DNA of 40,829 bases. Source: Oscillospiraceae bacterium. Its GTDB lineage: Bacteria > Bacillota > Clostridia > Oscillospirales > Acutalibacteraceae. Below the pieces are notes generated by a model. It had not been told where the DNA came from. It did no database searches and saw nothing but the letters and a program-made list of their open reading frames with translations. Where the stretch lies: NCBI GenBank assembly GCA_022508805.1, contig JAFLUM010000017.1, positions 1 to 40,829 of the forward strand, in the 5' to 3' direction. The position numbers were made by a program, and so were the translations under genes. Shown here in pieces: positions 7,001-36,590 of this stretch (positions are counted from its first letter, which is position 1; every line of letters starts with the position of its first letter).

Positions 7001-8402
7001 AATAGTAGCTAAAGAAATTCGTTGCCAAATAAATATATTTGTTTTCTTTAACATTAGGCACAAAATTTGCTCCTATGTAGATGTATTTTACATTGGTGCA
7101 GCCTTCAAAAATCTCATTGGAAAGATAATCTCCCAATTGAGATCTTTCAGTTAAATCTACATACTTTACATTGTCCTCGACAATTATTTTTTCAAGACCT
7201 GTGCAATCTTTAAAAGCATGCTCCCAAATATTCATGTCGTGATCAATATGAAGCTCTTTAAGCCCTGTGCACTCGCTAAAGGCACCTTCCTCGATTACCT
7301 TAACGCCTGACAAATCAAGCTCTGTTAACGATGTACAGCCTGAAAAGCAAAATTTGGTAACTACCTCGACGGTCGACAAATCAATATTTTTAAGTGACGT
7401 ACAGTCTGCAAACGAGGCATAATCTAATTTAATGACTTTTGACAAGTCAAAATATTCTAATCCCGAACAGCCGTAAAATGAACGGTAACCTATATTCACC
7501 TTGCCGTTACTGATAAATTCCTTTAATGATGTACATTTTTCAAATGCGTAGTCAATTATTGACGTCGCATTGCCTACATTCACTTTTTCAAGAGCAGGGC
7601 ACTCGCTGAACATATATTTATATATTATTTCATAGTTCGCAATTGTAACCTCACGCAGAACGGGGCATTTGTAAAACAAATATTCAGAAAAAACGTCTTT
7701 TTGTGCTATTACCTTGCCTGTACGGGTATCTGTTGTTGTTTCTACCTGTTTCAATGGAGAACCGTAAATTTCCGCTTTTACAAGATTTGGACATAGATAA
7801 AATACATACTGACCGAGGCTTACACCTTTGGGAACCGTAATTTCAGTTATACCAGTATTTGCAAAAGCTTTGTTTTTAATTTCCATACCCGTGGGATTAC
7901 CTAAATCTACGGTTTTAAGTTTTGTGATATCTGCAAAAGCATTTGAGTGTATTATTACATTTTGTGTATTTCCAAAAGTAACTGATTCTAAAGCAGTGCA
8001 AGTAGTAAATGTATCTGACCATATATCAAGGTTACTTACGTTTCCGAAAATTACATTTTTCAGGCTTCTGCACATATAAAACGCATTAACGTATATATAA
8101 TTCACGGTATTCGGAATTGTAATACTCTCAAGCTTTCCTTGTGAATTGGTACCGTAAAACACATAATTGCCCATACGTGTTACTGTGCTGCCGTTTATTG
8201 TATCGGGAATTACAAGATGCGTTCCGGAATTTTTTAATTTAATTTCGTTAATAGTCAAGTTTTCGGCTGAAATCGTGTATGTATATATATTTCCGTCGGC
8301 GTCGACATATTCAGCAGTAGCCGCAGAGCTTTGAAATGCACATACCGCAAGCATAGACACGATAAACACCGTTGTCAATAAACATCTTAATACCTTTTTC
8401 AT
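4092..8402 (-). CDS. BspA-type leucine-rich-repeat surface protein (1436 aa)
   Basis: A secreted, membrane-anchored surface protein. Residues 1-27 are a signal peptide. About 30-840 are BspA/TpLRR leucine-rich repeats, with many units of the type AFxxCxSLKxIxL. About 844-1292 hold six Ig-like repeats of 73-77 residues with the pattern YTG..I.P.V.V..G..L..G.DYTV.Y.NN...GTA.V.I.G.GNY.G. About 1293-1390 is a low-complexity Asp/Asn/Lys/Gln linker. About 1394-1412 is a transmembrane helix with a basic cytosolic tail. There is no LPXTG motif, so anchoring is by the helix. It is the last gene of a sigma/anti-sigma operon; its ATG overlaps the anti-sigma stop (TAATG), so translation is coupled. BspA relatives bind host or matrix ligands; the ligand here is unknown. 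No clear terminator follows. Confidence 0.92.
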   Translation of the reverse strand: MKKVLRCLLTTVFIVSMLAVCAFQSSAATAEYVDADGNIYTYTISAENLTINEIKLKNSGTHLVIPDTINGSTVTRMGNYVFYGTNSQGKLESITIPNTVNYIYVNAFYMCRSLKNVIFGNVSNLDIWSDTFTTCTALESVTFGNTQNVIIHSNAFADITKLKTVDLGNPTGMEIKNKAFANTGITEITVPKGVSLGQYVFYLCPNLVKAEIYGSPLKQVETTTDTRTGKVIAQKDVFSEYLFYKCPVLREVTIANYEIIYKYMFSECPALEKVNVGNATSIIDYAFEKCTSLKEFISNGKVNIGYRSFYGCSGLEYFDLSKVIKLDYASFADCTSLKNIDLSTVEVVTKFCFSGCTSLTELDLSGVKVIEEGAFSECTGLKELHIDHDMNIWEHAFKDCTGLEKIIVEDNVKYVDLTERSQLGDYLSNEIFEGCTNVKYIYIGANFVPNVKENKYIYLATNFFSYYYLSSLEKIEVSPDNPYYRSVDNVLYLDEGDVYILLCYPRAKKGEYYSTQKALAGVNKDFTLGEMAFAGTRHLKEVNFTKPVVFPEFEDNSKDLRMYNLLDSSFYDSSVEKVTFPKGGMKTVGFFMFTSSAIKDIDLSETERVMRGGFSYCQNLIEIDLPSCTDLAGYAFEECKSLKTVNLPLWTGETSDWAGDYVFYRCTALESVNMPLVEYLPDSCFCGCTSLVNVYAPNCIQIDEYCFYGCTSLEKLDMPLRYVGKYAFKGCSNLQDVTLNNARVFEGAFLNCISLQSIDGLKNIGESAFSGCVSLKNIKLYGVSKIGESAFKDCNGLTLAQFDNTKCTFGSKAFENCPNLSFYCDENSDAYNYAVKNNIPIIAISVGFQNDKYEYTGSKIEPSIIVSISGMTLVQNRDYTLTFENNLKVGTATVTVHFIGDFDGLPDARRVFTITRRDITSAEVEYVVDNEYTGEDIRPAVVVRLDGKILVEGVDYSIKYSSGTDTGTMFFTINGRGNYTGSIDCYYNIVRRDIAEAAADKIPDCVYTGSEICPIPTLTWNGFTLIYGEDYEVRYFENVNAGFGTAVIYGKGNFCGTQLVKFRIFGKSIENAVVSEIADQEYTGQAIQPQVTVTVDGKTLTENVDYTVEYKNNIENGTASVIIRGIGNYSGVTEKFFNIYKNSVYSFTVFSETQMTATYDGTPLKPEMEVYFGTELLTEGVDYTVRLENNINAGTATVTICGMGRFEGERSYNFTILPCKVGAEDVFVSGNTQYNGEAIEPQVTVYKNGKLLEIGTEYTVTYHNNIEVGTAYLTVEGIGNYIGTVNMEFEIYAPKEENKGDDNDNKQDKDPTPAPDDSQDDKDKQEPADPKPDNGNKNDNDTAQKDENQNSTDNQNKPSSSEQQDGTQTDNSQQNAVDSPSIPNTDSENETVENILWIGLTVPLLIALNILSDKWRKKHGKKTFIERIKDAVNDIA

Positions 8403-9397
8403 TATTTTTCCTCCTCTACTCTGATAAGGTAGCTGAACGAGCAGCCCTCAAATTCTACTGTTACTATTCTGTTGGCAGGTGTAGCGGTAGAAAAGCCGTA
8501 AATACTGCAGGCACTTATTGGAATTATCTTTTCCGTGCCGTTGTCGTAAACAGCAGTTACCGTAAGTCCGCTGAAATCTGCCTCTTCGCCGACCTTGTAG
8601 GTGCGTTTGAAATCGCTTGAATATGTACCCGTCAGCTTGATTATCTGCGGTGCTGCAGTTGCATCTTCATCGACCCTCGTAAACGGTTCACGGGTCGTGG
8701 TCTCCGTCGGCGGTTCGGTGGGCGGTTCCTCGGGGGATAGTACCTGCGACAGATTCGGATTTTTCGGAGCTACCGAGGTCGTCTGTTCCTTATCGGTTTT
8801 ATCCTTATCGGTCGTGGTATTACCCTGCTGTGTCTGCCTGCTCGGCGTGACTGTTACGGGGGCATCTTTTTCTACGGCCGTTTCCGAAGTATCGGTAACA
8901 GGCTCAGTGGATGCTTCCTCAGTAACGCTTTCACTTTCCGTAACAGGCTCGGTAATAAGCGCCGGCAGAGTCGGCTCTTCGTGCCTTTCACCCGTTACAA
9001 AATCTCTGAACGCCTGTGCAACGCCGCCAAGCACATCGATCCCCGTGGTCTTTTCGGTCACTGTGTTCGCCGTAAAGAGCAGCGCCATCACTGCGCAGGC
9101 GGCAAGGGTTATTTTGAAAGCTCTGTTTATGTTCTTCCATTTTTTGTTGCCGCTGAGTCGGTCAATGAATTCATCGGCGGTTTGCAGCCTGTGCAATACA
9201 TACACCGCTCCGCGTTCACCATAAAGGTCGTTGAGCGCCTCGCTGTACTCGTCTATTAAATCAAAATCAGCTTCGCCGTCAGGCTTTGCCAGCTCTTCGT
9301 CAATAAGCTCGTTGAGCAGCTCGGCAAGCTCTGTATAAAGAATATTGTCGTTAAAAATACTTTCCGCTATTTTTCGGTTTAAAACTATCTCGTTCAT
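8402..9397 (-). CDS. Membrane-spanning anti-sigma-factor-like protein with Ig-like ectodomain
   Basis: 331 residues. Residues 1-92 are a cytosolic, helical, acidic domain. About 94-110 form one transmembrane helix. About 120-245 are a Thr/Pro/Glu-rich extracellular spacer, and about 250-329 are an Ig-like domain (GLTVTAVYDNGTEKIIP) resembling Big_3-type bacterial Ig folds. Its position between an ECF sigma gene (16-bp gap) and a surface protein gene (1-bp overlap), together with the single-span inside-to-outside topology, is the basis for the anti-sigma call. I do not see a textbook zinc-binding anti-sigma (H-x3-C-x2-C) motif, so the sigma-binding domain is inferred from context. The ectodomain would be the sensor or would contact the LRR protein. 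Confidence 0.7.
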   Translation of the reverse strand: MNEIVLNRKIAESIFNDNILYTELAELLNELIDEELAKPDGEADFDLIDEYSEALNDLYGERGAVYVLHRLQTADEFIDRLSGNKKWKNINRAFKITLAACAVMALLFTANTVTEKTTGIDVLGGVAQAFRDFVTGERHEEPTLPALITEPVTESESVTEEASTEPVTDTSETAVEKDAPVTVTPSRQTQQGNTTTDKDKTDKEQTTSVAPKNPNLSQVLSPEEPPTEPPTETTTREPFTRVDEDATAAPQIIKLTGTYSSDFKRTYKVGEEADFSGLTVTAVYDNGTEKIIPISACSIYGFSTATPANRIVTVEFEGCSFSYLIRVEEEK

Positions 9398-11041: not shown

Positions 11042-14000
11042 ATGAAAAAGAAAGGTGTTATTACCAAGGTGTTCAGTTTGGTAATGGCGGTAGCGATAGT
11101 CGCAATGAGCATTCCGTTCACGGCATTCGCTGTTTCCAAGCCCGATGATACCATCAATTTCGGCGTGATCAGCGATCTTCACTACTTTGCCGAAGAGGAC
11201 ATGGGTGAAGATATGAATGCGTTTATTGCCGACTGTCAAAGCTCCGGCTCAACAACGTATCTTGCGCAAGCGGTGCTCAACAATGCGTTAAACGCATTTG
11301 CCAATGATGACAGCATTGAATACGTTCTTGTTTCGGGCGACCTTACGCGCAACGGCGAATTAAACGCCCACAAGGCTCTTGCAGCACGCCTTGAACGGTT
11401 TGAGGCTGAGACCGGCAAGCAGGTGATCGTCGTTGACGGTAACCATGATATCAATAATAAGCGTGCCGCTAAATTCTCAAACGGCGAATGGGACAAGGGC
11501 ATGGAATACAGCATGACTCCCGACCAGTTCAAGGAAGTTTATAAAAACCTCGGTTATGACCTTGCCGACCACGTATATACCCTTCCCAACGGTGCAACTG
11601 CCGGCGGACTCTCATATACCGTCAGACTTAACGACAGTTATTATCTTGTAGTTCTTGACGGCGCAATGTACAGCGCAGACGTTACCGCCTCAGGTCTTGA
11701 CGAGCAGGAAACTGCAGGTATGTTCACAGACGACCTTTATAACTGGGCTTTAAAGGAAATTAAAGCTGCCGATAAAGCGGGATATACAGTGTTAGGTATG
11801 ACCCACTTTAACTGGATACCCAACTTTGACATTGAGGATTCTCTTTTTGAGGCTTTCGTGCTCAAGGATTGGATGAAAATCGTTGAGACCTTTGCCGATG
11901 CTGGTATGCACTACGCTTTCTCGGGTCATATACACTCCCAGGACATCGTTAGCCACGTCAATGATAACGGCGAGACCTTTACCGATATTGTTACTACATC
12001 GCTTCTCAGTTTCCCTCACTATTACAGAACGGTGGAATTTGTAACTGAGGGCGACAAGGTCACATTTAACTATGAAACATACGATATAGACAAGTTTCAG
12101 CCGCTTGTGGTGAACGGTCAAGCAATGCCCGTTCCCTACAAATATACTTCATTCGGAATCAACTTCGGTAACGGCGGAGTTAGGGATTTCGTTATGAGAG
12201 TGATCGAATATCAGCTTCGCAGCGGCTTTGGTAAGGATATACGCAAAGCGGGCGGTCTCTACTCATACCTTACGGATATGGTAGATTTCAATGAGCTTAT
12301 GACCGAACTTACAAACTCTAAGCTTTTAGGCGGAGCCTCCTCTCTTGCTATCAGAGCTCTTCTTCGCTCTATCTGCAATCAGGTAGACAAAGTATATCTA
12401 AGAGAGGAATCCATTCCTTACACTATGTCGGTTCTTGAAAAGGCGATCGACAAGGTGCTGGATATTGAAATATCCGATTATCCTTCAACCAAATTTGCAG
12501 ACACGCTCGGTTTTGCCAGCAAGGGTGACGTAGGTACTCTTGCAGACGTTGCATCGGAGCTTCTTGCCTATCACTACTCCAGCGATGAGAATATTTCGGA
12601 CGATTTGTGCATGAAAAGCGCACTTGAAAATCTTTACAATAACGAAAAAGGCGAAATCGTTCTCAATACCTTGCTTGATGCAGTTCTTAACGATATCTTG
12701 GGAACGATCTTGAGCGATATAAAGATCGATCCGATATCTATGGGCATCAGCGGATCTAATTCCGAGATTTTAGACGGAATTATTGATGCGCTTCAGGGTC
12801 TTTTCGGCACGCCCGATTTCAATGGGCTGAGCGTAGGTGATGTCGTTGCGGTAATCCTGATGACAGGCGTACTCGGCAAAAACGACAATCTTGCTGATAC
12901 GGTTAGATCACTTCTCAGCGAATATCTTACACAAAGCCAATACGATATTATCGACGCTGAGCTTTACAGAGTTGTCAAGAGCTTTGTAACTGACGAAAAT
13001 CCCGCAGTTGAGGCGGACCATAGCGGTACGATCGTTTACAACGGCAAGGTCGCGGTCACTCCCACAGTAAAGGATCTGCGTTTGCCCTCAGGCGTTGCAA
13101 TTACCTTCGGCGAAAGCAGCAATTCAGCAGTAAACATCAGCTATGTCACAAAATACAGTCTTACACGCACCGATATACAGATAGTCCCCTATTCCGAAAA
13201 GCCCGATTTCTCAAAGGGATCAACGGTTAAGGCGACTGTCAAAGCAAGCAGTGAAGAGGTAGGACGCGCTTATCCGGGCGTTGATCTTGGATTTATAGGA
13301 ATTCTGTACCATGACATCACGGTCGTTCGCCATACGGTACAGATAAGCGGACTTGAGGCAGGTAAAAAATACTCCTACCGCATTGGAGATGCTTCACGTG
13401 GCTGGTGGAGTGATGCGGGAGTTATCGAAACTGCCGATAATTCCACTGCGTTCAGCTTTTTCCATATGACCGACCCGCAGGCGGTCACCGACAGACAGTA
13501 TTCCGATAACTGGGCACAGGCTGTTAAGACTGCATTCACGCTTCATCAGAATTCAGACTTTATTCTGAGCACAGGCGACCTTGTTGACGACGGCGGCAAC
13601 TTCAATCACTGGCAGAATATGTTTAATTCCGCCTCTGATAACCTTATGAGCACGGTTTTGATGACCGCGACCGGCAACCATGAAACTAAGGGCGACAACG
13701 CTACGGTTGAAAACTTTCTGTTCACTAACCTTCCCGAGCAGGATACTGCAAACGGCGTTTACTATTCTTTTGATTACAACACCGCTCACTTTGCAATTCT
13801 TAACACGAATGAGCTTAATTCCGACGGAACACTTTCAGACGAGCAGCTCAACTGGCTCAAAGCGGATATGGCCGACTCTGACAAGCCGTGGAAATTTGTG
13901 GCGCTTCATAAGGCTCCTTATTCAAACGGCTCACACTTTGACGATGACGACGTTGTAGCGCTCAGAACTCAGCTTTCGACCCTTATGCCTGAGCTTGATA

Positions 14001-14614
14001 TTGATATGGTATTCCAGGGTCACGACCACGTTTATCTGCGTACCGACGTTATGAACAACAACACGGTTGTCGATACCAAGACACAGGAACTCACCCATAA
14101 CGGACTTAAGTACACCTCAAAAATTGCTCCCGACGGAACCATATACTCAATAAACGGTACGGCGGGCGTTAAGCACTATACTCCCAAAGAGCAAGCTGAA
14201 ACCGACAAGCTGTTCCCCACTGCTGAAACCGTAGTTGATGTTCAGATACCGTCATATTCCTACATTCAGATAGACGGCGGCAACCTGTACTTTGACTCAT
14301 ACGCAGTCACCGGAAGCGCTGAGGAGCGCATTGACCAGTTCGCTATCTCAAAGGTCATCACTCTCCCTGACGGCACTACCATTGACGGCACAAACGGCAA
14401 CCAGACGACTGCTCCCGACGGAACGGTCACTACTCCCGATGAAAGCACCACAGATGGCAGCAACGGCACATCAAATGTTGAAGGTGATATCGCAAATACA
14501 TCAAGCTCCAATCGCGTAATGACGATTGTTTTTGCGGCTGTTGCATCGCTTGCAGTGATAGCAGGTGTTGTGTTCACGGCGATAGTTATAAAACGCCGCC
14601 GCGAGGAAGCATAA
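11042..14614 (+). CDS. Surface-anchored protein with two fused metallophosphoesterase domains
   Basis: 1190 residues. A signal peptide covers about 1-30. The first calcineurin-like domain has every metal-binding block: SDLH (Asp45, His47), SGDL (Asp99), DGNHD (Asn133-His134), GMTHFNW and SGHIH. A helical middle of about 300 residues follows (roughly 390-660). Next is a purple-acid-phosphatase-type N-terminal Ig domain (HTVQISGLEAGKKYSYRIGD), then a second, purple-acid-phosphatase-like catalytic domain with HMTDPQ (about 811), STGDLVDD (about 843), ATGNHE (about 875), ALHKAPY and QGHDHVY (about 993). A Thr/Asn-rich linker and a transmembrane helix (about 1159-1183) with a basic tail anchor it outside. 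Such enzymes cleave phosphoesters; the substrate is not predictable. GGAGGT upstream of the ATG supports the start. Confidence 0.92.
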   Translation: MKKKGVITKVFSLVMAVAIVAMSIPFTAFAVSKPDDTINFGVISDLHYFAEEDMGEDMNAFIADCQSSGSTTYLAQAVLNNALNAFANDDSIEYVLVSGDLTRNGELNAHKALAARLERFEAETGKQVIVVDGNHDINNKRAAKFSNGEWDKGMEYSMTPDQFKEVYKNLGYDLADHVYTLPNGATAGGLSYTVRLNDSYYLVVLDGAMYSADVTASGLDEQETAGMFTDDLYNWALKEIKAADKAGYTVLGMTHFNWIPNFDIEDSLFEAFVLKDWMKIVETFADAGMHYAFSGHIHSQDIVSHVNDNGETFTDIVTTSLLSFPHYYRTVEFVTEGDKVTFNYETYDIDKFQPLVVNGQAMPVPYKYTSFGINFGNGGVRDFVMRVIEYQLRSGFGKDIRKAGGLYSYLTDMVDFNELMTELTNSKLLGGASSLAIRALLRSICNQVDKVYLREESIPYTMSVLEKAIDKVLDIEISDYPSTKFADTLGFASKGDVGTLADVASELLAYHYSSDENISDDLCMKSALENLYNNEKGEIVLNTLLDAVLNDILGTILSDIKIDPISMGISGSNSEILDGIIDALQGLFGTPDFNGLSVGDVVAVILMTGVLGKNDNLADTVRSLLSEYLTQSQYDIIDAELYRVVKSFVTDENPAVEADHSGTIVYNGKVAVTPTVKDLRLPSGVAITFGESSNSAVNISYVTKYSLTRTDIQIVPYSEKPDFSKGSTVKATVKASSEEVGRAYPGVDLGFIGILYHDITVVRHTVQISGLEAGKKYSYRIGDASRGWWSDAGVIETADNSTAFSFFHMTDPQAVTDRQYSDNWAQAVKTAFTLHQNSDFILSTGDLVDDGGNFNHWQNMFNSASDNLMSTVLMTATGNHETKGDNATVENFLFTNLPEQDTANGVYYSFDYNTAHFAILNTNELNSDGTLSDEQLNWLKADMADSDKPWKFVALHKAPYSNGSHFDDDDVVALRTQLSTLMPELDIDMVFQGHDHVYLRTDVMNNNTVVDTKTQELTHNGLKYTSKIAPDGTIYSINGTAGVKHYTPKEQAETDKLFPTAETVVDVQIPSYSYIQIDGGNLYFDSYAVTGSAEERIDQFAISKVITLPDGTTIDGTNGNQTTAPDGTVTTPDESTTDGSNGTSNVEGDIANTSSSNRVMTIVFAAVASLAVIAGVVFTAIVIKRRREEA

Positions 14615-26231: not shown

Positions 26232-26265
26232 AGCCGGGATGAGGTTTTTAGACCTTATCCCGGCT
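26232..26265 (+). terminator. Terminator after the zinc-ribbon fragment
   Basis: AGCCGGGATGAGGT (26232-26245) pairs with ACCTTATCCCGGCT (26252-26265), 14 bp with one G-U. The following T-tract is imperfect (CTCTTGTTG). The rest of the gap to 26453 shows no gene, only a short GATCAT direct repeat (about 26412 and 26446). Confidence 0.65.
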
Positions 26266-26453: not shown

Positions 26454-27692
26454 TTATCTCTTTCGTTTCACAAAATAGCCGCAGGTAAAACCGCCGCCAA
26501 GGCCAATCGCTCCGGCAACCAGCAACCACCACCAAGGGATACCATGGAAATCACCAGCGGGTTCCGTTCCATCAGTATCTGTTGGGGCTTCTGCCGTCGA
26601 ACCTGGACCATCTGTTTCTTCCGGCGAATCGGTAAACGCCGGATCTCCATATGAAGTGTCTGTGCTGCCGTCATGAGCCGCCGCCCGTTTGACAATCACC
26701 GTGTATTCTTTCGTTTCACCGTTTTCTGCCGTACAGATCACTTTCACCAAATTGTCCTGACCTGGAAGCAGGTTATCTCCGCCAACCACCTGTACGTTCG
26801 CTTTGTTATCGGCCGCCTTTCCGTTGACCTTAACGCTTTCAGTTTCATAAGGCAACCACACAACATAGTCAGTCCTATCAGCGCTGAATACCGGTGACAA
26901 CAGGAATCCTTCTACGGTGATTTCCGAGAGATCATTATTACTGCTGGCCACATAGTTGGGATCCTTTTCCCGATGCACCTTGATAGTATAGGTCTTTTTC
27001 GACCCATTTTCCGCGGTGACCGTGACGGTCACATTGGTGTCGCCGCCCGGCGTTAAATCCGGGCTGCTGATGTTCACCTTAGCCTTGCTGTCCGCGGCCG
27101 TTGCCTTCACGTCCAGTTTGGATACGCTGAACGGTACATTTGCTGTATAGCTTGTCGTGTTGGCGTTAAAGGCCGGTGAGATCGTAGCGTTGCTCACCGT
27201 CAGGGATGCAAGTGCGTTGTTTGCGGACAGAGGCTCCGCAACAGTCACCCGATAACTGACAGTTCCAATGTTGGCGTCGGTCTTGCCGTCCGATGCTTTT
27301 ACATTGGTATAGGACACCTTGATAGCTGTCCCTGCCGCCACATTCTTGACTTTAAAGGTGACGGTAAACAGATCCTTGCTGCTGTTGATCGGTGCCGACA
27401 GGTTGTTATCATAGGCAACCATATTATTACCGTTGAACTCAACCATCCATGGGGAAGCAATACTCTGTTTGGTTCCGGTCATGGTCAATTGATTGGTGTC
27501 GTAGGACAGCGTGCCGGATGCACCGTACAGTCCGGAACCATTCAACTTAAAGGTCAGTATGATGGTATCCCCGGCCCGAACGGTTCCCGGTCCGGTCAAG
27601 GACGCAGTCGTTGTTGCGGCCGATACGCTGAGCGGCGTCAGCATACACAGGAGCAACAGCAGGACCACCATACCTGAAAGAATTTTTTTCAT
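26454..27692 (-). CDS. Membrane-anchored cohesin-domain protein
   Basis: 412 residues. The signal peptide is 1-25. A cohesin domain covers about 26-150 (VRAGDTIILTFKL, then GTLSYDTNQLTM, then the SSKDLFTVTFKVKNVAAGTA motif). Two cadherin-like beta-sandwich repeats are at about 157-245 and 253-338, each ending in ENG.KK/TKEYT.K/V. An acidic Thr/Asp/Gly spacer (about 340-383) and a transmembrane helix (about 386-408) with a KRKR tail complete it. Cohesins bind dockerins through a calcium-dependent interface. The gene starts 15 bp after the stop of a protease gene whose product ends in a dockerin, so it is the likely cell-surface receptor. Its GGAGG site overlaps the gap. No sortase motif is seen. 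Confidence 0.88.
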   Translation of the reverse strand: MKKILSGMVVLLLLLCMLTPLSVSAATTTASLTGPGTVRAGDTIILTFKLNGSGLYGASGTLSYDTNQLTMTGTKQSIASPWMVEFNGNNMVAYDNNLSAPINSSKDLFTVTFKVKNVAAGTAIKVSYTNVKASDGKTDANIGTVSYRVTVAEPLSANNALASLTVSNATISPAFNANTTSYTANVPFSVSKLDVKATAADSKAKVNISSPDLTPGGDTNVTVTVTAENGSKKTYTIKVHREKDPNYVASSNNDLSEITVEGFLLSPVFSADRTDYVVWLPYETESVKVNGKAADNKANVQVVGGDNLLPGQDNLVKVICTAENGETKEYTVIVKRAAAHDGSTDTSYGDPAFTDSPEETDGPGSTAEAPTDTDGTEPAGDFHGIPWWWLLVAGAIGLGGGFTCGYFVKRKR

Positions 27693-27707
27693 ATTCTATA
27701 ACCTCCC

Positions 27708-30700
27708 TCAGCACGCACGTGCCTGCACTTTTTCTTTTCCCAGAATGTGTGCTTTGATCTGAATAAAATCTGTAATAGAAACGGCTTTGTCCCCGCTGGT
27801 ATCCGCGGCCTTGGCCGCTGCACCCGTCAAAATATCTTTTCCAAGCAGATGAGATTTCACCGCCAGCATATCGGTGATGGTGATCTCTCCGTCCCCATTG
27901 GTATCGCCGGTCACAACGATCGTTACCTTTGCGAGGATCGTGGAGCCATCCATCAGCCGCACCTCCATGCCGGTGCCGACTAAGGTGCTTCCGGATATCT
28001 CCCTATTTCCTTTGTAAACCTTACAATAGGCTTTCTCATTGATACCGTTCAGCAGCTGAGCCGCCGTTGTACCCGCGCCGATCTTGCTGATGTACCCGCT
28101 GCCGACCGAATACACATTGCTGGTGATCGAGGTAGGAATGCGGGATTTTACAGTTACCTTGAAAGTTGTGGTCTTACCGCCGTAAGTAACGGTTACAGTC
28201 TGACTGCCTACCTTGTTCGGATCGTAGCCGCTCACCATGGAACTGTCCACGGTGATCTCTTCGCTTGTGCCATTGTTGTACTTCACGGTAATCTTCGCAC
28301 CGGTCAGATTCAGGCTTTCGCCAGTCAAATACTCCGTTTTTCCGGGATTCGATTTCATAGTGATCGACGTTATAGATTTCGCGGACACATTCACCGTGAA
28401 AGAAGCCGTCTTACCTTGATAGGTCACGGTGACTGTTTTCGTGCCGGGCGTGGAAGTATATCCGGTGACGGAATAACCGGTGACGGTCTCGGAAGAGCCA
28501 TCGTTGTAATACGCGGTCACTGTCATTCCCGCCGTATCGAGACTTTCTCCCTCCAAATACTGCATCTTACTCGGTTTCTTGGTCACTTCGATCCGTGTCA
28601 ACGCTTTCGCAAGCAATGTGACCTTAACCGTAGTGCTGTTACCGGCCTTATCCGTGGCGACAACGGTATACACCCCATCCTTACCGGTCAGGATAAACTG
28701 ATGATTGGCATTCAACTCTACCGGTGATCCGTTTACCGTGACGGCGTCCAGATATTCGTCTTTCACCGTAACTGTAGCGGAGTCGTAATAGGTACTTCCG
28801 TTCGTGATGCCGGAGATCACCGGAGCAGTAGCGTCCAACACAATACCATTACTGGAATAGTAACCAACGTTTCCAACCCGGTCTGTTATTTTGACATAAA
28901 CGATCCACTTAGCATCGGGATCGAGGTGGACTGCCGTTTTGTATTCGGTCCAGGAGGCAGTTTTTTCAATTTCCTCCTTACTGATCTCAGTATGGGACAG
29001 ATAGTAATAAATCTTGTCTACACCCGAACCAATATCTTCGGCTTTGATCACCGCCTCCTGCGTTTCGTTAAAGAACAGGCCAAAGGTGATATTGCTTAAG
29101 AACGTACGCCAACTGTTTTCGCCAACCGTAATGGTTGCCGTCGGCGCTTCGGCATCGATCAGCTTTGTCCCTTTCGCCGATCGGGTATTTTTCGTGCCGC
29201 AGTGATAGTCACACTCAGCCGTTTCGGTACCGTCTTCCCAATAGGTCGCGTTGTTGTCGTATTGGTAATTCGAATAGCGGTGCCCGACCATAGGAATGTC
29301 TGCAACATCTTTGGTTTCTGCGTATTGCTTCCCTTCGAAATTGACAGTTGCCGTGTATGTAGTGATGCCGTCTGCGATACATGTAGCAGGTTGTTTTATC
29401 TTGTTGGTCACAAGCGCTTGCCTTTTCTCGGCGTGGGATGGGTCGTGCTGACAGGTAAAGGTCGCGTCAGCCGTCTTTCCGTCATCAGACCAGTCAAACA
29501 CAGGCTTACCATAACTGTGCCCCGTAGCGGGTACAGTCACCTCTTTCGTTTGCGTGAATTCTTCTCCGTCAAACGATACCGTTGCTGTATAGGAGATAGA
29601 ACCGTTTGTCGTACAGGTGGGCAGCGTAGTGTCTTTGATGGTAGCTTTGACCGTTGCGGTTTGCGTATGGTCCAAAGCGCAGGTTCGGGTAACAGTTACG
29701 GAATAACCGTCCTCTGTCTGTTGCCAATCAAACTTCGGTTCGCCCCAATCATGGCTCACGGTAATGATACATGTTTCCTTAAATCCGTTGATCTCCGCAG
29801 TAACCGTCGCAGTACCCACGCCGACAGCCCGCAAGGTGACTCTATTTCCCTCAATGACCAAGGTGACTACTGTGCCTCTTTGTTCCACACTCCACTGAAC
29901 CGTTTGATTGAGCGCGGTATCAGGCGAAACTACAGCGTTAAGTTCATCGGTTTTTCCCTCTTTCAGGGAAAGCTCTGTATGATCGAGCGTGACACCTTCC
30001 GCCTTGATTTCTTTCCATTGGGCAACGTAAGTCACGTCTTCTGTGACAATAGAAGACCATGCAGGTTCCCAACCCACAAACCAGTAACCTTGACGAGTGG
30101 GAGCAATACCGTTGCCAAACTGCGGAGTTTGCGTTCCGGTTTTCAGACCGGTATGCTCCTCCGGAGAGAAGACAGTGTTATTCGCACCGTCTGTATAGGT
30201 TACGGTGTATTCGTTTTCGTCTACCGCATCGTCGGCTTTTTTCGCCGCGATACCGTACGCGGGCGCGCTCCTGCCCGTCTTTTCCACGACGTAGTCGTTC
30301 AAAATTTGAGGATTCGCAGCGTTAAATCTCTCGTTCGGTCCCGCGCTTGCGTGATCATAGAGCCCGTCGGCTCCGTCCGCGTACCACGCGACGACGGCGT
30401 CGCTTTCTTCGGCGTCGTCCCATTCGGCGGGATCGCTTAAGTCGACGCGATAGGTTACGCCTCCTCTTTGAGACACGACTACAATATCGTCACCCAAAGT
30501 TTCTGCCGCATTGCCGTAAATACGCACATCGTCAGCGACCTTAAGCTCCTGCGTTCCGGTCCCCCACAGATAGAGTCCCCCACCGGCACCGGTAACCTGA
30601 TTTTCCGTGATCACACCGCCGGTCATCGTGATCCATCTGCCGGACACAGCGCCGTTTGTTGCCGTGTTGTCGCGAATAACGCCGCCCGTTATGACAAGCT

Positions 30701-33700
30701 GTGCCGCAGCGTCTCCCGACATGGCAATGGCGCCGCCGTTGCCGGTGACATGATTGTCTTTGATATTACCGCCGCTGATTGTCAGCGAATCGTTGACGGT
30801 GGAGCCGCTGAAATAGATGCCGCCACCGTTGGTTTTAGAGAAAGCGTCAAGCCGTCCCGTTCCGCCGGTGATGGTTCCTTTTCCGCCGCTGCTGTCCATG
30901 ATCGTCACATGATAGCCATACTTCGCGCCGCCAAGACCGCCGGCTTCAAACCAAAGAACCGGGCCGCCGTTTCCTGTTATCGTGTAACCGTTCAGATCAA
31001 TCGTCAGATTGTAATCGTAATCAATATGACTGCGAATCCAGACGTCGCGTACCGATTCGGTCACATTTTTGAGCAGTGTCACCGTCTGCGCCTCGTGATT
31101 TCCTTGCTGTATCCGCGCATGGGCCGCGTCAATCGCCTCTTGAAGGGTAGAATAAGTCGTATCCCCCACACGAGCGACCGCTGTCCCCGCTGCCGCGTAG
31201 GGACGGATAATCGGCGCCTCGAGGAGCTCCTCCAGCCCCTCATATACGCTGTGGGTCCCTTTTGAAACTGAGTTCTCCGCCGTTGACTCCGGGAATTCCC
31301 ATGGACTTTCGGGGGAAAGAAGCTCCTCCCATGCGTAAGGCGTCGAATTTGCAGCGATCTTGTCGGCAGCGCCAGGAGTTTTATCGTACTGATACAGAGC
31401 CGTGGCATACCAGACGTCCTCACTGAACTCGGTGGTAGACATGACCCGCAGCTCATTGGGGTCAATCAACTGAACCTTTGCCCGCTCCCCTTTCAGACGG
31501 CTGGAAAGTATCAGATATTTGCTATCCTGATCATACCACATGGACGCGGAAATGCCCTGTGTTACATTGGAAACGCCTTTCAGATTAACGCCCGGTACCA
31601 TGCCGAGAAATTCACATTTGAACGGATTGTTTGGGAAGAAAACGCGATATAAAGCGCCGTTTTCCGACAGGACATAATAGCAACTCGCCGTGCCGTCATC
31701 CTCTATATACGCAATCGTTGCCGCGGGCGAATCAAAAGGCAGCGCGTTGCCAAAGGGCGCTCTCAAGGTTCTTTTATACATTCCGATCCATGGGGAACCA
31801 CTTAAAAAGAGACCAATCGTCTCATAAAAACCAGAGTAGACCGTCGGCACCTGAGCCGCATCCGACCATGCATACTCCAGATAAGAAAGCATCATTGCCA
31901 GTTCCACATCGTAGGTTTCAAGATCAAGCGTATACATAAAATAGCCGTCATGGAGATACAGCCTTCCGTTGGAAAGTCCGCCGGCATAGAACGAGTAAGA
32001 CGCCGGCAGCGGGTGCTGCTCCGTCAAATCCTTGGGGGAAGCAACATCATAGCTTGCCAGATAGCCGTTCTGCTCCTTGTCATAGATCACCGTTGACATC
32101 TGAATCGAAGGGATCTCCTCAACGGTAATGGTACAGGTATCTTTTACGCCGGGATCCGCCGCGGCGCTGACCGTGACGGTTGCCGTGCCGAGCCCCACCG
32201 CTGTTATCACGCCGTTGTCTACCCTAACGGCTTTTTCATTCGAGGTCTCCCATAAGAGCTCCTGATCTTTTGCCGTCCACGGGCTGATCAGCGGACTCAA
32301 ATCCTCCTGTCCGGTGATTAACATCTTCAGATCCTGCGGCAGGATATCCAGTTTCTGTACCGTTTCGGTAGGCTTTAAGATATCATCCCCGTCATCCTCC
32401 GCGGGCACCGCAAACAAGCCACGCACGGCGTAATTCAGTTTGTCTGTAACGTGCGAAACAGACTTTGTTTGCGGATTGATGCACAGCAAACGATTGTACG
32501 TCGAAGAAACGTTATCGGCATAGGCTTCGGCCAAATACAAGACGTCCTTTTCCGCGTCGTAAGCCATGGAACCGAACCGTTCGCGGATCGTTTCCCCGGG
32601 AAGCCTTTCACCGACCAGGGCAAGCTGATCTTCTTTCAGCTGCTCCGGTGTCCATTTCACAAATGACGAGGAAACTGACTCGTAATAAGTAAATCCGTAG
32701 AAATTCCCCTTGCCGTCAATGGCCATAGAGGTAATGCGTCCTGCGCCGTCCGTGAGACCGGAAACAGAGATTTGGGTCACTTTTTGGGCATTGCCGTTTT
32801 TCGGATCAATGCTCCACAGATAATTCCCATCGGTGAGCGCGTAAAGCAAATGATCTGTCCTATTGTAGGAAAGAGCATGGATGCTGTGCAGCCTAAACCG
32901 CTCTAAATCCACAAGCTCGGTCAGATAGTCCACCTCATCCACTGGAGAGGTATAGAGCTTACTTCCGATCACCTGATAGATATATCCGTCCACATACGCA
33001 GCAGCGGTAACGGTATCTCCGCCGTGATACGCGATGGGCTTGATCCCATTATTCTGCATATTCGCAGGATCGATCACGGTCCACGCCTTGTTATACTCGC
33101 CTTTGCCTTCGTGGATATAACCGCCCAGTTTTCCCTCAAGCGCGGGATAGACTTTTTTGGTCTGATAGTACCGCGTCGTGGAATTTGCCGCGTAGTCGCC
33201 CACAAATATCACGCAGGTTGGACCGACATTGGCGTCTCTCAGGTCAAAGGTGCAGGTCACCTCTTTGCCTTTTTCTCCGTTTGGCACACAGATTCCATAG
33301 ATCACCGTGCCGCTGCGGTCGGTAATACTCATATAAGCAATGTACTGATTATCCTTGGCCGTAACGGTAAGAATACCCTCTTCATCCTCTGTAACACGCA
33401 GGATGGTCGGTGCGGTATCATCCACCGTCAGCGTGGCGGATTGCAGTGTAGTGCCTTTGCCGACTCTTCCCTCTTCGATCATGGCCTGCAGCTCATTTGC
33501 GCTGATATCTCCGCCTGTTTCATAATACTCAGGCACCGCCACCACATTGACGTTAAACACATCGTTCTCCTGCAGTTTCATAGAAGCCGGCGTCCGACTA
33601 AAGGGAATGGTAACGGTGCTGGTCATCCATTTGCCCTTGTAGTTCGACGCGGCCTCCACTTGATGTCTGACGCTGCCCATCCCGATCCACTCATCCTTGT

Positions 33701-36590
33701 CATTTGTCAAATACACGGCGGCAGCAGCCGCGCTGCGGATCAAGATAGTGGAATACCCTGAAATGGTGTCTGTGCTGCGAATCGCGCCGCGGTCGGGGGT
33801 GAAGGTTTTCTCAAACGTATACGGATTTCCCGTGTAGATCCGGCTTTCGTCGGTCTCGGAATTCACAATGCTGAAACAGTTGGCATACTGACTGTTGCCG
33901 GAAGTCAGATACGGATAAATGTAAGACAAGGCGGTATCGCCGTAAAGCCAGTCTGCATAGCTGGCGTGGTCGTACATAGAGGCGTCGCCCCAATCCCCGT
34001 AAAATCCGATCAGGGGAATGGAATATTCTACGTCCTGCACGCCCTCCGAGTCTGCCACGCCTGTAATAAAGGTATAGCCCTCTATATAAGCGCCGTTTGG
34101 ATAGTCCTTGAGCTGCTCCTTATCGGTCAGCGTGATTTGCACATGCACGGAAACGGATTCATAGGCTGCCACCGTAAAGGCTTCATCGGCTTTTACCGCC
34201 GCACCGTTTACCGTATAGACGGCATTGAAACGCAAAGGCGTGGTCAGTTTATCCAAAAGGTCGACCTCGCGCCCGTTGGAGAGGGTGTAATTCTCCTTCA
34301 GCGCCTGCGTAAACAACACGCTGGAAAGGGTGTAAGAATTCTCCTTGCCGCTGAAATTTTCAATGGTAAAATCATATTGATATACGCCGGTCTTTTGACG
34401 ATCGTCACCGAATTCGGCCTTGACCTTTCCGTCGGCGTATTGCGGGGTGGACTTTTGATCCATTAAAATCAACGCCTGGGCGTTCAGGGCGCGATCCAGA
34501 TCGGCCAGACCGGAACCCTGCTGGAAAACCGGGTAATAGTAATCGCTTTTTTCATCCTTAAACGGAACGGCAGTGGCCATCAGCAGATTTTGGATCAAAA
34601 AGCGCGCGCTGCGGTTGGTCTTGGTAAGCTTTAAATCCCTGACATACTGTGCAAGCACGGCCGACATGCCCGCCACCTGGGGGCCTGCCATGGAGGTTCC
34701 GGAAAAGCTGACATAATCCTGTCCGCCCGGAATGCGACCGTTCACTGAGAGAATATTTCCTCCGGGAGCGACAATATCCGGTGCAAGAGAAAGATTCCCC
34801 GGAACGCCGAAGGAGCTAAAAAAGCTCATGGTGTAATAGCCGCTTTTTTGATCGGCAAGCTCCTTGCCAACCGTCATTTTTCCCGCAAGGTACTCCGTAC
34901 CGTCGCTGCCCGAAATCACCGACGCAGCGCTTTTTAAAAAGGCGCCGTCGGCCTTGGTCACCGTGATCACAGGGACGCCGCCGTGATAATCGGCAAGAAC
35001 GGGATCCAGCGTGCCCTCCTCGTTATTTACAAGGATCACCGCGATCGCGCCGGCCTCTGCCGCACGGTTGGCTATGGCTGCAAGCGACGTCCTTGCGTCC
35101 CGCTCGCAAACGGCAATTTTTCCATGCACAGCGCTGTAAAGATCACCGACCGCGTCTGAATCGGCAAAGACTTTGCCGGGCAGATATACATACTCCCGCT
35201 CACCGGCCACAGCAGAAAGAGCGCCGGTGCCGGTCTCAACGGCATGATAGAAAATCCACCGACCGTCTACGGTAAAATACGACTGCGGGGTATTGCTGTT
35301 ATCCACGGAACCCACAGAGAGGGTCGTGCTGTACGATCCAGGGCTGCCGAGGGTGTTAAAGTTTACGTCTTCGGATAAGAGGTAGCCGTCCATTTGGCCA
35401 TAGTCGGCCCATGTGCCGTTATTGCCGGCCGACGCCACGCAAACGGTGCCGCTGTTTACGAGATTTTCCAAAATATCGGCATAAACGCTGGAACGGTTGA
35501 ATCCGGAGACAAGGCTTCCGAGCGATAGATTGATGCTGTCCGCTCCAAGGATGATCGCATCCTCAATGGCGACCATATAGGTAGATTCATAAGCGCCGCC
35601 GGTTTTGTCAAAGACACGCAGGGTCAGGATCTGGGCGTCGGGCGCCATGCCGCAAACGCCGACCGCATCCGCCGCATAAAGATAATTCCCGTTTCCAGAT
35701 GGAATGTATGTATTGGCCGCGGCAATGCCCGCCACGTGGGAGCCGTGCTCCATGTCTTTTGCGGTCTCGCCTTCGTGGTGGTTCACATCCTTGCCGGGCT
35801 CCGCGTAGTTATATGCAAAGGGTAATTTGCTGCTGTAATAAAGGTCGTTTACATTGATCTCTTTTTTGCCGATATTCAGCTCCTGCAAAACGCCTTCAAT
35901 GGTTGCCGCGGTCATCAGATCAAGCTCGTCGATGCGGATCAGTCCCTGTTCTTCCAGCCGACGCAGGGAATACTGAAAGGCGCTCTCGTCAAAGGACTGG
36001 TGATCTGTGTCGATTCCGGTATCAATGATAGCGACACGGCTGCCGGCGCCGGTAAAGCCTGCCGCATGGGCAAGGGAGGAACCGGTCATGGAGGAGGAGT
36101 CGAGCATGGCAGGGCTAACGGTTCCGGAGGTATCCATTACATCAAGATACACACGGTTTTCCACAAAAACGTCAACAACGCCATCCATGGCCTTAATGTC
36201 GTCGATTTTTCCGTATTCCACGTTGGCGGAGATCATATTGGCCACAAGGGTCAGATTCCACACCACGTCAAGCTCTTCGCCGTCAAGCGCATAGGTCTCA
36301 ATGTTGTCGACCACAAGCTCCTGAATCTGCTGCAGTTTGTGCCGATACGCCATGGCGTCCTCGTTTGCCGCGATGTTTTCGATGCTGTAGGGAACGTCGA
36401 TGGTAGGCGCGTCCTCCAGAACGATAGAAACCCGCACCGAATCATCGTCGGCGTAGGTTTCCCCTCCCGATCCGGAAGAATTGCTGCCGTGAAAATCCAA
36501 CGCAGAAACACTTGGTACTGCCATTTGAAGAAGCATGATCACGGTCAGCAATAATGCTGTAAAACGCCTACGGGGATTCATTCTTTGCAT
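27708..36590 (-). CDS. Giant secreted subtilase with C-terminal type I dockerin (2960 aa)
   Basis: Signal peptide about 1-30, then a propeptide-like region (about 50-150). The S8 domain has catalytic Asp190 (VAIIDTG), His282 (HGSHVAG), oxyanion Asn390 (SAGNNG) and Ser633 (SGTSMAGP), with a PA-type insert (about 455-555) as in C5a-peptidase/lactocepin enzymes. Fn3-like domains follow. Then come propeller-like repeats (about 1150-1400 and 1500-1760) with a Big_2 domain between, a right-handed beta-helix stretch (about 1800-2040), an InlB-type repeat (about 2125-2190), Big_2, Cys/His modules, and two Big_3-like domains (about 2663-2817). The dockerin is at about 2894-2953, with two calcium loops (DTNGDGEITITD, DTSGDKAVSITD). 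AAAGGAG supports the start. It is the first gene of a two-gene operon with the cohesin protein. Substrate unknown. Confidence 0.93.
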   Translation of the reverse strand: MQRMNPRRRFTALLLTVIMLLQMAVPSVSALDFHGSNSSGSGGETYADDDSVRVSIVLEDAPTIDVPYSIENIAANEDAMAYRHKLQQIQELVVDNIETYALDGEELDVVWNLTLVANMISANVEYGKIDDIKAMDGVVDVFVENRVYLDVMDTSGTVSPAMLDSSSMTGSSLAHAAGFTGAGSRVAIIDTGIDTDHQSFDESAFQYSLRRLEEQGLIRIDELDLMTAATIEGVLQELNIGKKEINVNDLYYSSKLPFAYNYAEPGKDVNHHEGETAKDMEHGSHVAGIAAANTYIPSGNGNYLYAADAVGVCGMAPDAQILTLRVFDKTGGAYESTYMVAIEDAIILGADSINLSLGSLVSGFNRSSVYADILENLVNSGTVCVASAGNNGTWADYGQMDGYLLSEDVNFNTLGSPGSYSTTLSVGSVDNSNTPQSYFTVDGRWIFYHAVETGTGALSAVAGEREYVYLPGKVFADSDAVGDLYSAVHGKIAVCERDARTSLAAIANRAAEAGAIAVILVNNEEGTLDPVLADYHGGVPVITVTKADGAFLKSAASVISGSDGTEYLAGKMTVGKELADQKSGYYTMSFFSSFGVPGNLSLAPDIVAPGGNILSVNGRIPGGQDYVSFSGTSMAGPQVAGMSAVLAQYVRDLKLTKTNRSARFLIQNLLMATAVPFKDEKSDYYYPVFQQGSGLADLDRALNAQALILMDQKSTPQYADGKVKAEFGDDRQKTGVYQYDFTIENFSGKENSYTLSSVLFTQALKENYTLSNGREVDLLDKLTTPLRFNAVYTVNGAAVKADEAFTVAAYESVSVHVQITLTDKEQLKDYPNGAYIEGYTFITGVADSEGVQDVEYSIPLIGFYGDWGDASMYDHASYADWLYGDTALSYIYPYLTSGNSQYANCFSIVNSETDESRIYTGNPYTFEKTFTPDRGAIRSTDTISGYSTILIRSAAAAAVYLTNDKDEWIGMGSVRHQVEAASNYKGKWMTSTVTIPFSRTPASMKLQENDVFNVNVVAVPEYYETGGDISANELQAMIEEGRVGKGTTLQSATLTVDDTAPTILRVTEDEEGILTVTAKDNQYIAYMSITDRSGTVIYGICVPNGEKGKEVTCTFDLRDANVGPTCVIFVGDYAANSTTRYYQTKKVYPALEGKLGGYIHEGKGEYNKAWTVIDPANMQNNGIKPIAYHGGDTVTAAAYVDGYIYQVIGSKLYTSPVDEVDYLTELVDLERFRLHSIHALSYNRTDHLLYALTDGNYLWSIDPKNGNAQKVTQISVSGLTDGAGRITSMAIDGKGNFYGFTYYESVSSSFVKWTPEQLKEDQLALVGERLPGETIRERFGSMAYDAEKDVLYLAEAYADNVSSTYNRLLCINPQTKSVSHVTDKLNYAVRGLFAVPAEDDGDDILKPTETVQKLDILPQDLKMLITGQEDLSPLISPWTAKDQELLWETSNEKAVRVDNGVITAVGLGTATVTVSAAADPGVKDTCTITVEEIPSIQMSTVIYDKEQNGYLASYDVASPKDLTEQHPLPASYSFYAGGLSNGRLYLHDGYFMYTLDLETYDVELAMMLSYLEYAWSDAAQVPTVYSGFYETIGLFLSGSPWIGMYKRTLRAPFGNALPFDSPAATIAYIEDDGTASCYYVLSENGALYRVFFPNNPFKCEFLGMVPGVNLKGVSNVTQGISASMWYDQDSKYLILSSRLKGERAKVQLIDPNELRVMSTTEFSEDVWYATALYQYDKTPGAADKIAANSTPYAWEELLSPESPWEFPESTAENSVSKGTHSVYEGLEELLEAPIIRPYAAAGTAVARVGDTTYSTLQEAIDAAHARIQQGNHEAQTVTLLKNVTESVRDVWIRSHIDYDYNLTIDLNGYTITGNGGPVLWFEAGGLGGAKYGYHVTIMDSSGGKGTITGGTGRLDAFSKTNGGGIYFSGSTVNDSLTISGGNIKDNHVTGNGGAIAMSGDAAAQLVITGGVIRDNTATNGAVSGRWITMTGGVITENQVTGAGGGLYLWGTGTQELKVADDVRIYGNAAETLGDDIVVVSQRGGVTYRVDLSDPAEWDDAEESDAVVAWYADGADGLYDHASAGPNERFNAANPQILNDYVVEKTGRSAPAYGIAAKKADDAVDENEYTVTYTDGANNTVFSPEEHTGLKTGTQTPQFGNGIAPTRQGYWFVGWEPAWSSIVTEDVTYVAQWKEIKAEGVTLDHTELSLKEGKTDELNAVVSPDTALNQTVQWSVEQRGTVVTLVIEGNRVTLRAVGVGTATVTAEINGFKETCIITVSHDWGEPKFDWQQTEDGYSVTVTRTCALDHTQTATVKATIKDTTLPTCTTNGSISYTATVSFDGEEFTQTKEVTVPATGHSYGKPVFDWSDDGKTADATFTCQHDPSHAEKRQALVTNKIKQPATCIADGITTYTATVNFEGKQYAETKDVADIPMVGHRYSNYQYDNNATYWEDGTETAECDYHCGTKNTRSAKGTKLIDAEAPTATITVGENSWRTFLSNITFGLFFNETQEAVIKAEDIGSGVDKIYYYLSHTEISKEEIEKTASWTEYKTAVHLDPDAKWIVYVKITDRVGNVGYYSSNGIVLDATAPVISGITNGSTYYDSATVTVKDEYLDAVTVNGSPVELNANHQFILTGKDGVYTVVATDKAGNSTTVKVTLLAKALTRIEVTKKPSKMQYLEGESLDTAGMTVTAYYNDGSSETVTGYSVTGYTSTPGTKTVTVTYQGKTASFTVNVSAKSITSITMKSNPGKTEYLTGESLNLTGAKITVKYNNGTSEEITVDSSMVSGYDPNKVGSQTVTVTYGGKTTTFKVTVKSRIPTSITSNVYSVGSGYISKIGAGTTAAQLLNGINEKAYCKVYKGNREISGSTLVGTGMEVRLMDGSTILAKVTIVVTGDTNGDGEITITDMLAVKSHLLGKDILTGAAAKAADTSGDKAVSITDFIQIKAHILGKEKVQARAC

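Follow-up and report, generated by a model that had tools for sequence, protein, structure and literature searches.

We analysed the 40,829-nucleotide contig JAFLUM010000017.1 of a gut Oscillospiraceae bacterium (GenBank GCA_022508805.1), hereafter called the window, and found on its minus strand two adjacent genes that probably form a surface-display operon, in which the cohesin of a small anchor protein tethers a giant secreted protease through the dockerin at the protease C-terminus, as judged from domain content, genomic comparison and a structural model. The pairing is not confined to this protease: comparable two-gene units recur elsewhere with other cargoes. Cohesin-dockerin pairs have been described chiefly from cellulosomes, and enzymes like the C5a peptidases and cell envelope proteinases are usually anchored to the wall in cis, by sortase.

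In the mechanism we propose, the first gene would supply a giant secreted subtilase resembling C5a peptidases and cell envelope proteinases, and the second a protein with one cohesin, whose C-terminal helix would fix it in the membrane. Once the protease is secreted, its calcium-loaded tail, composed of a module termed here X and the dockerin, would bind the cohesin and the protease would be held at the surface in trans, this linkage replacing a cis anchor; the protease's own paralogue in this genome terminates in a membrane segment. Together, the X-dockerin tail and the anchor gene would behave as one exchangeable unit that carries various cargoes in related Clostridia. For the window pair itself, we infer both the surface location and the calcium dependence.

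The protease and its anchor

A preliminary description of the window had proposed a 2960-residue secreted subtilase ending in a type I dockerin, and the open reading frame (ORF) and Pfam scan bear out its size, strand and domains: Peptidase_S8, PA, Big_2, Big_3 and a terminal Dockerin_1. The PF00082 match scores 146.1 bits, and the S8 catalytic residues, described as complete, are indeed present in all three motifs (DTGID190, HGSHVAG282 and GTSMAGP631). The closest solved structures are 7edd, a C5a peptidase, and others from the C5a peptidases and cell envelope proteinases (6vjb, 31mr), and by these relatives the enzyme is of the C5a-peptidase/cell-envelope-proteinase kind. It lies outside the NCBI LPXTG-anchored SGO_0316 subfamily (NF040553, 173.8 bits against a cut-off of 1400), and no sorting-like motif was seen near the C-terminus of the protein as read from the sequence. 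The protein is presumably an active protease, which may provide nutrient peptides or process surface proteins.

The terminal dockerin contains both of the calcium loops claimed for it, as two calcium-loop/helix repeats in each of which an I-T pair precedes the loop-closing D. Its best solved relative, and the only dockerin among the 50 fold matches listed, is 8x39/8x3a, a double dockerin from an S8 protease. The X module directly ahead of it has no Pfam family at E up to 1.

The downstream gene encodes a 412-aa protein with a signal peptide, one cohesin that also matches the cohesin fold, two Cadherin-like stretches and a probable membrane helix. Both the cohesin and the dockerin exceed the curated Pfam cut-offs in the hidden Markov model search that had been suggested as a check, and chance domain calls were rejected on the basis of these scores together with the fold matches. 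With one cohesin and an attachment segment, which is weak in the window protein and clear in its homologues (above the hydropathy cut in 10/10 close ones scanned), the protein has the make-up of a single-cohesin surface anchor with an OlpA/ScaE-like role. The next-gene position, the 15-bp gap, the cohesin and the anchor helix were thus described correctly, the helix being probable and weak by hydropathy. No plant-polysaccharide enzyme was found in the unit, in agreement with the earlier statement that it holds no carbohydrate-active enzyme.

The ribosome-binding site of the anchor gene starts directly after the protease stop codon, and the region's strongest terminator-like hairpin occurs about 190 bp past the anchor gene. 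This layout fits one transcript, and the two genes probably form one operon. The G+C content of the whole operon, protease body included, is 0.50-0.53, as compared with 0.457 (45.7%) for the window and 0.37-0.45 for other stretches sampled from the same genome, hinting at transfer of positions 26454-36590 or at their strong expression. We rejected base composition as a sign that a foreign tail was joined to a native protease body, because the body is G+C-rich as well; for the same reason the direction of a transfer cannot be told.

A single-chain AlphaFold2 model of the cohesin and dockerin gave a pLDDT of 91.3 and a pTM of 0.77, where about 0.57 would be expected from arithmetic with assumed errors if the dockerin were unplaced. 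The model seems to place the two domains together, and the complex of the window pair is a prediction of this model. Cohesin and dockerin each match their own half of one solved complex, 5nrm/5nrk; against the solved structures, a profile of the whole anchor had no match, whereas a cohesin-only profile did.

Recurrence with changing cargo

A scan of named genomes for relatives of the anchor yielded 80 loci, 11 of which (L099-L108, L111) encode an anchor 57-66% identical to that of the window. A same-strand dockerin gene is present directly upstream in 9/11 of these, with gaps of -7 to 31 bp. The cargo differs from locus to locus, and includes S8 subtilases (L099, 959 aa; L107, 3115 aa), an M6 peptidase (L105), GDSL/SASA esterases (L106), BspA-type leucine-rich repeats of the LRR_5 family (L102) and Glug/Big_3 proteins (L100, L101, L108). 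Despite this, the dockerins beside the close anchors keep 61-79% identity to that of the window. Less closely related pairs are found in Lachnospiraceae and other Clostridia (L170, L176, L178). Within 150 genomes of the family, the nearest anchors belong to other genera (G127, 67% identity; G044, 47%; G078, 45%), and the window's anchor class was detected in 0/38 other genomes of the genus, several of them incomplete (best score about 39 bits, as compared with 900).

Across 107 loci, a dockerin ORF was found upstream of 33/49 cohesin ORFs, L079-L082 among these 33 loci being duplicates of named loci. We assembled a set of 36 adjacent pairs (28 from this 107-locus scan, 7 from a further set, and the window); length or parsing filters removed L107, L118 and L214, though a dockerin gene adjoins the anchor in each, and in L093, L097 and L168 (the last from the isolate Roseburia faecis M72, with a SagB-type pair) a dockerin protein is encoded upstream, yet our own profile called no cohesin. 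Several anchors score below the PF00963 cut-off of 24.1 (L099, 23.8; L107, 22.5; L176, 23.1; L178, 19.5; L102 passes at 25.1), and the anchors of L168 and L138 have no PF00963 match, so that this family undercounts such anchors. X-like stretches precede the dockerin in many of the 36 pairs, as compared by eye; the recurring module ends in a pattern like VGTGM-V-LMDG----TIVVTGD and forms an X-dockerin dyad. In another locus (L116, on the same contig as L082), a 294-aa protein encoded at 5862-6746, directly before a window-like anchor, carries a dockerin and a weak cohesin match that scores 18.8 bits, below the cut-off; it is possibly a two-step adaptor.

The commonest cargo is a SagB-like glucosaminidase, encoded directly upstream of single-cohesin anchors in 18/36 pairs (L088, L089, L090, L094, L095, L098, L115, L120, L121, L132, L134, L170, L174, L176, L178, L210, L215, L219), with Oscillospiraceae and Lachnospiraceae records among them. 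The profile used to recognize this cargo was built from five proteins, four of which (L088, L090, L098 and L081, whose contig is also that of L121) represent pairs that were then counted. Nine of the cargo proteins score 34.5 to 80.9 bits in NCBIfam, far under the SagB cut-off of 425, and they are therefore relatives of SagB and not SagB itself. A dockerin-bearing SagB-like glucosaminidase with its anchor is possibly a tether for a cell-wall enzyme.

What the dockerin follows can be examined where the enzyme or the genome is held constant. In the same-genus genome G019, the protease is 70.6% identical to that of the window over residues 1-2121, where the BLASTP match stops, and its terminal dockerin shares only 32% identity with that of the window. 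The contig, which ends 314 bases after the protease gene, showed no cohesin. A partial copy of the protease in G018 has a dockerin 34% identical to the window's, with no cohesin in about 10 kb downstream. Within single genomes, dockerins of different pair classes are 0.24-0.46 identical (7 comparisons in 3 genomes), and the window-type dockerins have a mean identity of 0.69 (45 comparisons among 10 pairs, a single one being within-genome). Over the 36 adjacent pairs, cohesin identity and dockerin identity correlate with r 0.79, species relatedness left in (reached by 0/5000 permutations); in the 26 pairs outside the window class, r is 0.48 (0/5000 permutations, the best reaching 0.47). The orthologue and within-genome comparisons depend less on species relatedness than the correlation does. 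All three comparisons agree that the dockerin type tracks the adjacent cohesin and follows neither enzyme nor genome, which supports the proposed tether well.

We raise, tentatively, a wider possibility: the X-dockerin tail and the single-cohesin membrane anchor could constitute a general, horizontally exchangeable and cellulosome-independent surface-display module of Clostridia, whose commonest form tethers a SagB-like peptidoglycan hydrolase. If so, any secreted protein fused to an X-dockerin tail would become displayed by the neighbouring anchor gene, the tethering of SagB-like enzymes would be a basic part of cell-wall growth, and cohesin-dockerin pairing may be an ordinary device for surface attachment more than an invention of the cellulosome.

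Alternatives and further cohesins and dockerins

Several observations weigh against a dedicated surface tether. The membrane segment of the window anchor falls under the hydropathy cut used; 2/11 close anchors (L104, L111) have no dockerin gene alongside; the correlation between cohesin and dockerin identity still contains species relatedness; pTM is an indirect measure of cohesin-dockerin contact, taken here from a single uncontrolled model; and the two other cohesins of this genome could bind the window dockerin too. In addition, an upstream gene with a C-terminal dockerin adjoins the best cohesin of each genome in only 8/37 family genomes and 2/28 genus genomes; a C-terminal membrane segment passes the hydropathy cut in 4 of those 8 family anchors. 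This survey comprised 69 loci, 4 of which had no ORF at the match (3 family, 1 genus), and of the 65 ORFs picked, 6 had no cohesin by our own profile and 5 had no upstream ORF on the stretch. Both fractions are lower bounds, because of these losses and because the genus loci had only 1.5 kb of flank. They lead us to reject a neighbouring dockerin for every cohesin of the family: pairing is a feature of particular cohesin classes, and is not universal. Cohesins occur in 41/60 and dockerins in 46/60 of the family genomes at least 90% complete, and each occurs in 39/39 genus genomes.

The genome to which the window belongs (1.96 Mb, 99% complete) encodes three cohesin proteins on three contigs (PF00963, E up to 1), each combining a single cohesin with a membrane segment at the C-terminus, that of the window anchor being weak. 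The genome search also gave five dockerin proteins above the cut-off, the window protease included. Besides it there are a 696-aa SH3/SagB-like glucosaminidase, a 562-aa lipase-like alpha/beta-hydrolase, a 1714-aa protein of no recognised kind, and the 2179-aa protease paralogue, which carries a C-terminal membrane segment of its own and, internally, a dockerin-like insert beside an Fn3-like domain; the 1714-aa and 2179-aa calls are borderline, passing the genome search and falling under the cut-off in whole-protein scans. With two more cohesin proteins and four more dockerin proteins, the window genes are not the only or minimal set that "minimal cognate pair" had implied, although the tether reading in that phrase is supported by the model and by the agreement of dockerin class with cohesin.

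These proteins might instead form a shared docking set, in which all five dockerin proteins draw on the three single-cohesin anchors in common and adjacency reflects co-expression only. The numbers of cohesins and dockerins are compatible with this, as is the finding that neither of the other cohesin genes is directly preceded by a dockerin gene and that the other four dockerin genes lie on contigs distinct from those of any cohesin found. We nevertheless consider such sharing unlikely, since the remaining four dockerins share only 25-42% identity with that of the window, none has the I-T pair by eye, and the dockerin class co-varies with the adjacent cohesin.

It is considerably less probable that the anchor is shed, or that the pair acts off the cell as a released complex or as a link between neighbouring cells: the weak hydropathy of the window's membrane segment would suit this, and the two Cadherin-like stretches could mediate contacts, but the hydrophobic segment is kept in all of the close homologues scanned. 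That the genes are chance neighbours and the dockerin a calcium-stabilised tail with no partner next door is very improbable, for all that only 2/28 of the best genus cohesins have a dockerin gene directly upstream, given that the pair recurs with changing cargo, that dockerin and cohesin change jointly, and that the AlphaFold2 model seems to bring the two domains together.

A fragment of a cellulosome was also rejected as an account of the window genes. No multi-cohesin scaffoldin was found in the genome at the PF00963 threshold given above, although that family misses some relatives and a divergent scaffoldin may escape it, and none of the five dockerin proteins (0/5) contains a plant-polysaccharide enzyme domain by Pfam.

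Internal dockerin-like loop pairs, located far from the C-terminus, were observed in two large subtilases (L012:6198-12737, residues 859-908, near an Fn3-like region; L107:572-9919, residues 826-874). The dockerin subtilase of L107 also contains a cohesin-like stretch at residues 2801-2892 (own profile, E about 1e-5), and one was seen by eye only at about residues 1900-2010 of the L012 protein; such stretches could perhaps allow self-docking.

Features of the protease-anchor operon and its surroundings in the window
Feature	Position	Strand	Basis or remark
Terminator-like hairpin, downstream of both genes	26232..26265	.	
Membrane-anchored single-cohesin protein, 412 aa	26454..27692	-	ORF and Pfam
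Probable C-terminal membrane segment, about residues 385-408, then VKRKR	26469..26540	-	Read from sequence
Cadherin-like domain, better of two stretches, residues 162-242	26967..27209	-	Pfam
Cohesin domain, residues 31-145	27258..27602	-	In the 412-aa anchor
Intergenic gap of 15 bp with Shine-Dalgarno GGGAGG (27702-27707)	27693..27707	-	
Secreted S8 protease with C-terminal dockerin, 2960 aa	27708..36590	-	ORF and Pfam
C-terminal tail, residues 2123-2960, without counterpart in same-genus orthologue G019	27708..30224	-	BLASTP
Type I dockerin, residues 2895-2950, two calcium loops	27741..27908	-	Pfam and sequence
X module, about 75 residues, directly ahead of dockerin	27909..28130	-	No Pfam match
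Big_3 domain, better of two stretches, residues 2748-2814	28149..28349	-	Pfam
Peptidase_S8 domain, residues 181-682, PA domain inserted at 484-550	34545..36050	-	Pfam

Elsewhere in the window (4092-9397), a gene for a 331-aa protein with a C-terminal Big_3 is followed, touching at one base, by a gene for a 1436-aa BspA-type leucine-rich repeat protein; by eye, the first protein has a membrane segment and the second a hydrophobic segment at its C-terminus. A 1190-aa protein (11042-14614) combines two calcineurin-like phosphoesterase stretches with a purple-acid-phosphatase N-domain, and has a signal peptide and a C-terminal membrane helix, both by eye.

Comparison with known systems

Dockerin-bearing proteases and their tethering to the surface are already known or proposed, in Clostridium thermocellum. 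What is new here is the dedicated operon, the exchangeable cargo and the SagB-like peptidoglycan hydrolases as the commonest cargo; among the literature matches listed, whose scope left out most subscription journals, none described a protease and a cohesin protein in a dedicated two-gene operon, or a dockerin-bearing SagB relative. Because the partner can be read from the next gene in many genomes, the question of what single-cohesin membrane proteins bind becomes directly testable. The pairs also provide a natural set of matched, cargo-independent binding partners, and a possible route for placing proteases and peptidoglycan hydrolases on gut bacteria.

The nearest solved relatives of the protease part are the C5a peptidases and cell envelope proteinases named above; unlike these, the window protease has a terminal dockerin, and no sorting-like motif was seen near its C-terminus. 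A close parallel is the C. thermocellum S8 protease Clo1313_0689, whose double dockerin dDoc_0689 (PDB 8x39/8x3a; Chen et al. 2024, as related in PMC12484212) is proposed to anchor the enzyme to the cell. That protease comes from a cellulosome-producing host and its anchor is a cellulosome scaffoldin (PMC12484212), whereas the window protease has one dockerin and a dedicated anchor in the same operon, with no multi-cohesin scaffoldin found.

In Ruminococcus flavefaciens, the NlpC/P60-like protein RflaF_05439 is described in PMC3573020 as held through an X-dockerin by the cohesin of ScaE, and thus resembles the window protease as a non-carbohydrate enzyme whose X-dockerin sits on a surface-anchoring cohesin; unlike the window anchor, ScaE is sortase-anchored and also carries the cellulosome (PMC3573020). 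The Limousia mucinolysome, as outlined in PMC12997984, likewise places dockerin peptidases and an anchoring cohesin protein in a gut bacterium, but with multi-cohesin scaffoldins and many dockerin glycosidases, neither of which was found in the window's genome.

A recent survey (PMC11557425) records single-cohesin proteins of unclear function and membrane-helix anchors of unclear partner, which share with the window anchor one cohesin and a C-terminal membrane helix. Since that survey required a multi-cohesin protein and a dockerin-glycosidase, sets like the window's fall outside it, and one-cohesin sets were passed over or noted without a partner (PMC11557425). Unlike those anchors, that of the window has a candidate partner in the neighbouring gene.
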